A DNA stretch of 64,000 nt from Methylonatrum kenyense (GTDB taxonomy: Bacteria > Pseudomonadota > Gammaproteobacteria > Nitrococcales > Aquisalimonadaceae): positions 1 to 64,000 of the forward strand of contig NZ_JALPKO010000007.1 of assembly GCF_023195885.1 (NCBI RefSeq), read 5' to 3'. Of this stretch, positions 20,343 through 23,170 are shown one piece after another; the first letter of the stretch is position 1; each line of letters begins with the position of its first letter. A program made the translations under genes and the position numbers. The notes under the pieces were generated by a model. It made no database searches. It was not told the DNA's origin and saw only the letters and a program-made list of their open reading frames with translations.

Positions 20343-21494
<1,152 letters not shown>

Positions 21495-21674
21495 CCTGCA
21501 CGCAGCATAGCCGGGGAAAACCCGGGTATTACGCAAACTGTGGGCCTGGCAATAGATTTGGCGCTTCGCTGCGGTACCCTTTTCGGAACGGTCAGGGAAA
21601 CGTGGAGGAGATGCGGCCTTGGCTCCGCATTTCTCTGCAGACCACGTGGCAGCCATTCAAGTCCGGGGTAGGCC

Positions 21675-22685
21675 ATCAAACCGTTATTCGCGCAAGGTCC
21701 CTCAGCGACCACCCGCATCATCCTGCTGGCCATCGTGTCGGTGGGAATCATGACGCTCGACCATCGCGACCGCTTGACCGAGCCGGTTCGCGAGGCGGTG
21801 CATACGGCTGTCTCTCCGGTTCACTTCACGGTCAATCTGCCGTTCGAGATCAGCGATTATCTGAGCGAGACCTTGGCGACGCGGCGCGCCTTGCAACAGG
21901 AGAATTCCCGGCTGCGCGATCAACAGCTGCTCAACGCCGCCCGGCTGCAACGCCTGGATGAACTGGAGCGGGAGAACATCCGCCTGCAGGGCTTGCTGGA
22001 TTCATCCTACGAGGTCGAGGAATCGGTGGTGATCGCCGAACTCATGCGTCTCGACCTGAACCCCCATCGGCATGTGATTCAGCTGGACAAGGGCAGCCGC
22101 GATGGCGCCTTTGCCGGCCAGCCGGTTCTGGACGCGCATGGCGTTGTCGGCCAGGTCGACACCGTGGGCCGCGGCACCTCGGTGGTCCGGCTGCTTACCG
22201 ATCCAAGCCACGGCATCGCGGTCCAGGTGACCCGCAACGGGCTGCGCACGGTGGCCATGGGCAGCGGCAACCTCCGCAAACTGGAGCTGCCGCATCTGCC
22301 GAACAACGCGGATATCGAGGTCGGCGACCGGCTGGTGACCTCCGGACTCGACGACCGTTTTCCGCGGGGCTATCCGGTGGCAGAAGTGACCGAGGTCCGG
22401 CGTGAGCCCGGCCTGCCCTTCGCCCGGGTCATCGCAAGACCCTATGCCGAACTGGACCGCAGCCGGGAGATGCTGCTGGTCCGCACCACCCGGGAACAGG
22501 CGGAGGATCCGGAGCTGCCCGCGCCCCAGTTGCCGGCCGAGCAGCCACCGGAGGACACTGTGCCGCCGGCAGAAGGCCTGCTGCCCGGCATGACACCGCA
22601 GGATCGCGGCACACCGGACACCAGCGAACAGCCCGATGCGGGGCGGGCACCTCCGGCCGGCGGTGCGACTGAGGGCCAGCCGTGA
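21675..22685 (+). CDS. mreC: Rod-shape determining protein MreC, apparent AUC start
   Basis: Membrane-anchored elongasome protein linking MreB to PBP2. Read from the ATC at 21675 the product is 336 residues: N-terminus (M)KPLFAQGPSATTR as in known MreC, one transmembrane helix (RIILLAIVSVGIM), a coiled coil (about 65-105) and the beta-domain ending ARPYAELDRSREMLLV. A Pro/Glu-rich tail of about 60 residues follows. A TAG lies two codons before the ATC, and no ATG, GTG or TTG occurs until GTG 21735, which would cut the membrane helix in half. A GGGG at 21665-21668 could be the ribosome-binding site. Gene identity is firm; the start is inferred. Confidence 0.88.
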   Translation: MKPLFAQGPSATTRIILLAIVSVGIMTLDHRDRLTEPVREAVHTAVSPVHFTVNLPFEISDYLSETLATRRALQQENSRLRDQQLLNAARLQRLDELERENIRLQGLLDSSYEVEESVVIAELMRLDLNPHRHVIQLDKGSRDGAFAGQPVLDAHGVVGQVDTVGRGTSVVRLLTDPSHGIAVQVTRNGLRTVAMGSGNLRKLELPHLPNNADIEVGDRLVTSGLDDRFPRGYPVAEVTEVRREPGLPFARVIARPYAELDRSREMLLVRTTREQAEDPELPAPQLPAEQPPEDTVPPAEGLLPGMTPQDRGTPDTSEQPDAGRAPPAGGATEGQP

Positions 22686-23170
22686 GCGAGCTTGCCGGCC
22701 GCGGCCGACTGGTGATTGTGGTCACGATTCTCGTGGCATACGTGCTGGTGATCCTGCCGCTGCCGGCCTGGGCGCAACTGGCGCGGCCGGAATGGGTGGC
22801 GCTGGTGATCATTTACTGGTGCATGGCGGTACCACAACGGGTCGGTGTCGGCGTCGCCTGGCTGGCCGGCCTGGGCCAGGACGCCCTGCAGGCGGGCCTG
22901 CTGGGCCAACAGGCCCTGGCCTTCGCGCTGCTGGCGTTCGTCGTGCTGAAACTGCATCAACGGGTGCGCGTCTACCCGCTGGGCCAGCAGGCCCTGATCG
23001 TGCTGGCGCTGTTGTCCCTGGTCACGCTGGTCCAGATCTGGACCAATGGTCTGATTGACCGGCCCATGTCGATTCACAGCTACTGGCTGCCGCCGCTGGC
23101 GGGCATGCTGCTCTGGCCCTGGCTGGTCGTACTGCTGCGTGCGGTTCGCCGGTATTATGGTGTGCGGTAA
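22682..23170 (+). CDS. mreD: Rod-shape determining protein MreD
   Basis: Integral inner-membrane elongasome protein. The 162-residue product has about five hydrophobic helices and the family pattern ARPEWVALVIIYW and GLGQDALQAGLLGQQAL. It starts with GTG overlapping the mreC TGA (GTGA), and its stop is followed at once by the repeat at 23173. Confidence 0.92.
   Translation: MSELAGRGRLVIVVTILVAYVLVILPLPAWAQLARPEWVALVIIYWCMAVPQRVGVGVAWLAGLGQDALQAGLLGQQALAFALLAFVVLKLHQRVRVYPLGQQALIVLALLSLVTLVQIWTNGLIDRPMSIHSYWLPPLAGMLLWPWLVVLLRAVRRYYGVR

Follow-up and report, generated by a model that had tools for sequence, protein, structure and literature searches.

The window analysed here, a stretch of 64,000 nucleotides from Methylonatrum kenyense, carries the genes mreB, mreC and mreD in that order. 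The following features were recognized at the locus, where AUH denotes an ATC, ATT or ATA start codon:

20451..21494, + strand: mreB, the upstream neighbour of mreC, with an ATG start (NCBIfam NF010539, E 1.5e-162)
21665..21668, + strand: GGGG, the Shine-Dalgarno-like core of mreC, at a place that is G-rich (-12 to -8) across 183 AUH loci
21669..21671, + strand: in-frame TAG stop, which bars any upstream in-frame start of mreC
21675..21677, + strand: proposed ATC start codon of mreC; the aligned codon 1 is ATC, ATT or ATA in 181 of 257 loci
21675..22685, + strand: mreC coding sequence, read from the ATC to the TGA stop at 22683-22685
21735..21737, + strand: GTG, codon 21 of mreC, the first in-frame canonical codon, within the membrane helix and judged not to be the start
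22682..23170, + strand: mreD, with a GTG start overlapping the mreC stop (TIGR03426, E 1.1e-31)

The product of mreC was identified as MreC by TIGR00219 of NCBIfam (196.1 bits against a curated cut-off of 92.75), and it is the one mreC match in the source genome. Its frame from stop to stop covers 21672-22685. Direct reading of the sequence gave TAG at 21669-21671, GCC at 21672-21674 and ATC at 21675-21677, immediately followed by AAA CCG TTA TTC GCG CAA GGT CCC TCA, which encodes KPLFAQGPS, and there was no in-frame ATG, GTG or TTG between the TAG and GTG 21735. The sequence-only reading had placed the opening of the conserved MreC N-terminus at this ATC, had seen a TAG two codons before it, and had put the earliest conventional start codon, GTG 21735, inside the helix; all three points were borne out by the codons themselves, and the homologous codon is conserved in relatives. 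Residue 1 counted from the ATC aligns with residue 1 of PDB chain 7eft_A, cell shape protein MreC.

A consensus scan of 21400-21760 revealed no sigma-70 promoter or terminator, and Rfam at its gathering threshold gave nothing near mreC, the sole match in the window being a tRNA gene at 2534-2605 on the - strand. The gap between mreB and mreC (21495-21674) is 180 bases long in the window, and its median over 242 loci is 81.5. In this gap, GGTACCCTTTTCGGAAC is common to the window and locus L002, and TGACCTGATTCACGGA is common to L005, L007 and L009; these shared stretches are possibly a promoter or a processing site of mreC.

The mreC locus was read in the genus, family and order of the source and then in the class; the best 80 of 555 named relatives were read as well. 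The first search gave an mreC match in 92 of 95 genomes (own included), of which 86 were read first and three of the other six later; the class search gave a match in 250 of 276 genomes, and among the matches listed about one or two per family were taken. Removal of 16 exact duplicates from the 273 loci (L001-L273) left 257, one of them E. coli, and 11 of these with an unclear N-terminus were set aside, leaving 246 classified loci. The sample is biased towards MreC proteins similar to that of the window, so that a count such as 183 AUH loci in 257 is not a class frequency. A later phylum search contributed 29 loci, the best of 101 matched genomes besides the window's own, which were kept outside the 257.

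Within the order, 54 genomes (own included) were sampled; one had no match and one had a match without the N-terminus. Codon 1 of the remaining 52 loci was ATC in 35 and ATT in 17 (at codon 0 in L035), and at least 8 changes between ATC and ATT took place on the tree within the order. Two of these loci, L021 and L044, are called canonical by our rule owing to a TTG or GTG that lies in the Shine-Dalgarno (SD) stretch, two to four codons upstream, and they have the AUH codon as well; in eight more of the 52 a canonical codon lies farther upstream.

Over the 257 loci, the aligned codon 1 was ATC in 87, ATT in 58, ATA in 36, ATG in 22, GTG in 2, TTG in 2 and another codon in 50. An AUH start without a usable ATG, GTG or TTG was found in 162 loci on a strict count, which asks for AUH at codon 0 or 1 with the frame free of canonical codons from the upstream stop up to codon 4, and in 183 on a loose count that takes any AUH at codon 0 or 1. 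The other 21 also carry a canonical codon, either at codon 3 or farther upstream, from which a start is formally possible instead. A canonical codon lay within -3 to +2 in 42 loci (7 of which also have AUH at 0 or 1), 16 lacked AUH and had a canonical codon farther upstream, and 5 had neither. A canonical start is thus possible in 58 of the 246 classified loci, E. coli included, and the AUH start of mreC is not indispensable. The nearest canonical codon in the 51 canonical loci without AUH was ATG in 31, GTG in 17 and TTG in 3; GUG and UUG starts do occur at mreC, far more rarely than AUH. AUH codons occupy the homologous position in relatives with as little as about 40-50% identity. Of the 117 families sampled from the class, 67 are represented by one or more AUH loci (4 of these by a canonical locus too) and 37 by canonical loci only. 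Among named genomes, Methylobacter psychrophilus has ATA, Candidatus Thiodiazotropha endoloripes ATT, and Methylobacter luteus ATC, six codons downstream of a TTG. The phylum-search loci (the best 29 of 101) comprised 8 with AUH at codon 1, 9 with ATG and the rest with a start elsewhere or unclear; two of the 8 repeat earlier loci, and two have a TTG two codons up as well.

The neighbouring genes of the same loci served as controls, scored by a similar, somewhat looser rule. The start of mreB was canonical in 112 of 112 scorable loci, a further 130 having late-starting alignments and 2 running off the edge, and that of mreD in 124 of 125. The ATG start of E. coli mreC sits at the homologous codon 1, and ATG was also found in five loci whose MreC is nearest to that of E. 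coli among four queries (L306, L314, L318, L320 and L321). Codon 1 is GTT in L162, L249 and L173; a purine-rich, SD-like sequence precedes it, and none of the three has a canonical start ahead of codon 4. These may be GUU starts, and in L173 an ATC stands one codon before the GTT.

A tree of the 246 MreC proteins, built with the first ten codons omitted, required at least 28 changes between AUH and canonical labels, at least 16 between AUH and ATG (shuffles 23-28) and at least 47 exchanges among ATC, ATT and ATA (shuffles 72-84). The tree is built on one gene, is unrooted and has many weak branches; we read it as suggesting that AUH is old in mreC and that canonical starts arose repeatedly. 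ATG is disfavoured at this codon, though it does occur.

The pattern of substitution bears on where the protein begins. In 181 moderately diverged pairs of AUH loci, a set in which codon 1 is conserved by construction, the mismatch per codon position was 0.57/0.55/0.58 in the 45 bases upstream of the AUH codon, 0.07/0.06/0.35 in codons 2-10 and 0.23/0.09/0.40 in codons 11-20. Protein-level constraint starts at the AUH codon and spans codons 2-20, which would be lost with a start at GTG 21735. In the window, the SD lies at a normal spacing from the ATC, with a duplex energy with the anti-SD of -6.3 kcal/mol, and a G-rich peak at -12 to -8 was seen over the 183 AUH loci, 170 of which had an SD energy of -4 kcal/mol or lower, compared with 9 of 28 ATG loci. 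The median energies were -6.6 for AUH and -2.45 for ATG, and after subtraction of each site's own shuffles the medians were -2.61 and 0.1, respectively. The bases next to the start also showed preferences: C was found at -2 in 137 of 183 AUH loci and in 10 of 35 canonical-start loci, and C or T at -1 in 154 of 183 AUH loci (-2 and -1 are 21673-21674 in the window). Codon 4 is TTA in the window (21684-21686) and A-ending in 97 of 183 AUH loci, perhaps by selection for an open start region.

A gene-finder would choose GTG 21735, as it is the first in-frame ATG, GTG or TTG, and a GTG of this internal kind lies, in a close relative, where the published numbering of Pseudomonas aeruginosa MreC begins. 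However, this start would cut the membrane helix and would leave codons 2-20, which evolve as protein, untranslated, and its SD is poor (-1.5 kcal/mol). The first downstream canonical codon is moreover variable in place between AUH loci (median codon 17; codons 10-30 in 166 of 183, 8 before and 9 after), and E. coli has its ATG at the homologous codon 1. We regard initiation at GTG 21735 as very improbable. Still less credible is an out-of-frame start further upstream (ATG 21611, for instance), from which ribosomes would reach mreC by frameshifting or by reading through the stop. ATG 21611 is preceded by GGAGGAG and its frame of 116 aa overlaps the mreC start, but this SD almost abuts the ATG, the GGAGGAGATG motif is absent from the mreB-mreC stretches of L002 and L003, and a spaced SD with an ATG frame overlapping codon 1 occurred in only 4 of 176 AUH loci with a readable gap. 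The 116-aa frame had no NCBIfam match at E 0.001, there was no coding signature upstream of mreC codon 1, and no conserved upstream frame was found in the stretches of close relatives examined; this start, like GTG 21735, was rejected on these grounds. A misread ATG, raised as a possibility in the sequence-only reading and favoured by nothing beyond the rarity of AUC starts, has a practically negligible chance and is ruled out by codon 1 of the relatives, since the same class stands there in 52 of 52 readable same-order loci (ATC or ATT) and in other groups, isolates included. Taken together, the comparison strongly supports the ATC as the start site of mreC, and the source bacterium and most of the related Gammaproteobacteria examined appear to use a rare AUC, AUU or AUA start for mreC. 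The start-codon part of the earlier interpretation is strongly supported by this comparison of relatives.

The case of P. aeruginosa illustrates how such a start may be missed. In locus L308, mreC starts with ATC and has GTG as codon 17. Its product aligns with the MreC fragments in PDB 6zlv and 6zm0, which we take to be the P. aeruginosa structures of PMC8137920, with near identity throughout the aligned part. The residues P114, F115, R175, E188 and R190 named in PMC8137920 all match L308 at positions 16 higher, and no other offset from -60 to +60 matched even three of the five. This offset places the first residue of the PMC8137920 numbering at codon 17, which in L308 is the intra-helix GTG; that paper treats its first 14 residues as the cytoplasmic part plus the membrane region. 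From the alignment, the published P. aeruginosa numbering appears to start 16 residues late, at an intra-helix GTG in the close relative L308.

Common gene-finding programs accept only ATG, GTG and TTG, and they are likely to misplace the mreC start. In many genomes the annotated MreC probably lacks its N-terminal residues together with part of the membrane helix, an error that may carry over into laboratory constructs.

Starts at AUU, AUC and AUA are inefficient owing to third-base mispairing and initiation factor IF3. In the source genome, infC itself starts with ATC and has no canonical codon in the stretch examined. Among the best 30 of 52 infC matches, own genome included, an in-frame ATC-GC start-like codon was found in 29, one having no ATC in the frame examined; 21 of the 30 had no canonical codon and 9 had one somewhere in the stretch. 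In L298, the infC locus of genome G014, the sequence is ATC GCA ATG, and AUC or AUG could start. PMC9410913 gives infC and pcnB as the two AUU genes of E. coli, with IF3 repressing infC through that codon; for the AUU start of pcnB, both PMC9410913 and PMC13009471 cite Binns and Masters 2002. In Staphylococcus aureus, AUU and AUA starts with strong SDs gave ~10% of AUG output in poor medium, and ccpN up to 30% in rich medium, according to PMC13009471. As for the effect of dosage, PMC7793260 reports that overexpression of MreC in E. coli makes cells shorter and wider and that co-expressed MreD suppresses the shortening. It proposes that PBP2 activity is set by the balance between MreC and MreD, and quotes ~180 MreC copies per cell.

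We conclude with good confidence that mreC is translated from AUC 21675, a start of the infC and pcnB kind, and is probably held low by this IF3-discriminated start. The AUC would be decoded as formyl-methionine by the initiator tRNA, and the good Shine-Dalgarno sequence would set it in the P site. The third-base mispair would expose the complex to discrimination by IF3 and slow initiation at mreC. The start codon would then act as a fixed brake that keeps MreC scarce, probably matched to MreD, as MreC activates the elongation machinery and disturbs cell shape when overproduced in E. coli. With infC of the same genome carrying the same kind of start, MreC output may follow IF3 activity. The rare start probably holds MreC at a low level, and we infer the low output, the dosage benefit and the IF3 dependence of mreC from known AUU/AUC/AUA biology, the strong SDs and the AUC start of infC, with which the regulatory half of the earlier interpretation (held low and tied to IF3) fits.

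The AUH start may be real and yet only a constant brake, or a historical relic maintained because strong SDs compensate for it, with no role for the level of IF3; we find this quite conceivable, if somewhat short of an even chance. The free exchange of ATC, ATT and ATA (at least 47 changes) agrees with it, as do the stronger SDs of AUH than of ATG loci noted above, before and after correction by shuffles. The compensation between SD and start codon is significant by a rank test, a kind of test that ignores kinship, and gave no signal in 3 independent pairs on supported branches; we offer as a suggestion a trade-off that keeps overall initiation within a range. The SDs of mreB and mreD did not differ between the AUH and ATG groups, the ATG side having only 5 and 6 loci. 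Against a merely constant brake stands a weak argument: a need for weak initiation alone could be satisfied by GUG or UUG, and their rarity (4 of 257 at the aligned codon 1; at most 20 of 246 in loci without an AUH rival, with nearby and upstream candidates) points, weakly, to the IF3-sensitive class. A further reading, which we put forward tentatively as rather unlikely, is that mreC is a second target of the IF3 level beside infC over much of the Gammaproteobacteria, Pseudomonas-like bacteria included. The availability of IF3 would set the dosage of MreC and link the state of the translation machinery to the activation of cell-wall elongation, and enterobacteria like E. coli would have lost this link through AUG and a weak SD.

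The AUC-initiated mreC resembles the known systems to different degrees. As in mreC, the AUH start of infC is conserved in the relatives read; however, infC is autoregulated by its own product, whereas mreC encodes a cell-wall elongation protein on which any effect of IF3 would act in trans. As mreC would be, pcnB of E. coli is a gene outside translation limited by its start, AUU, but it is described as nonessential in PMC9410913, while mreC is an elongasome gene. The S. aureus genes ccpN (AUA) and cvfC1 (AUU) share with mreC a conserved AUH start and a strong SD; they are other genes, of the Firmicutes, and their ~10% of AUG output was measured directly, per PMC13009471, whereas mreC is known by comparison. 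E. coli mreC has the mreBCD order and the lysine-proline after codon 1 of the window's gene, and differs from it in its ATG start with a weak SD of -3.0 kcal/mol.

To our knowledge, only a few bacterial genes have so far been credited with AUU, AUC or AUA starts. A search of the open-access literature, with subscription journals and preprints outside its scope, gave no report of an unusual start in mreC; the kind of start codon is known already, and its use by mreC is apparently unreported there. It has probably gone unseen because E. coli has AUG and gene-finders take ATG, GTG and TTG only. With mreC, a core cell-shape gene joins the AUH-start genes, and this holds for no fewer than 67 of the 117 families sampled from the class. 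The AUC start of mreC offers a direct test of why MreC is restrained, and of whether cell-wall elongation is tied to the supply of an initiation factor.
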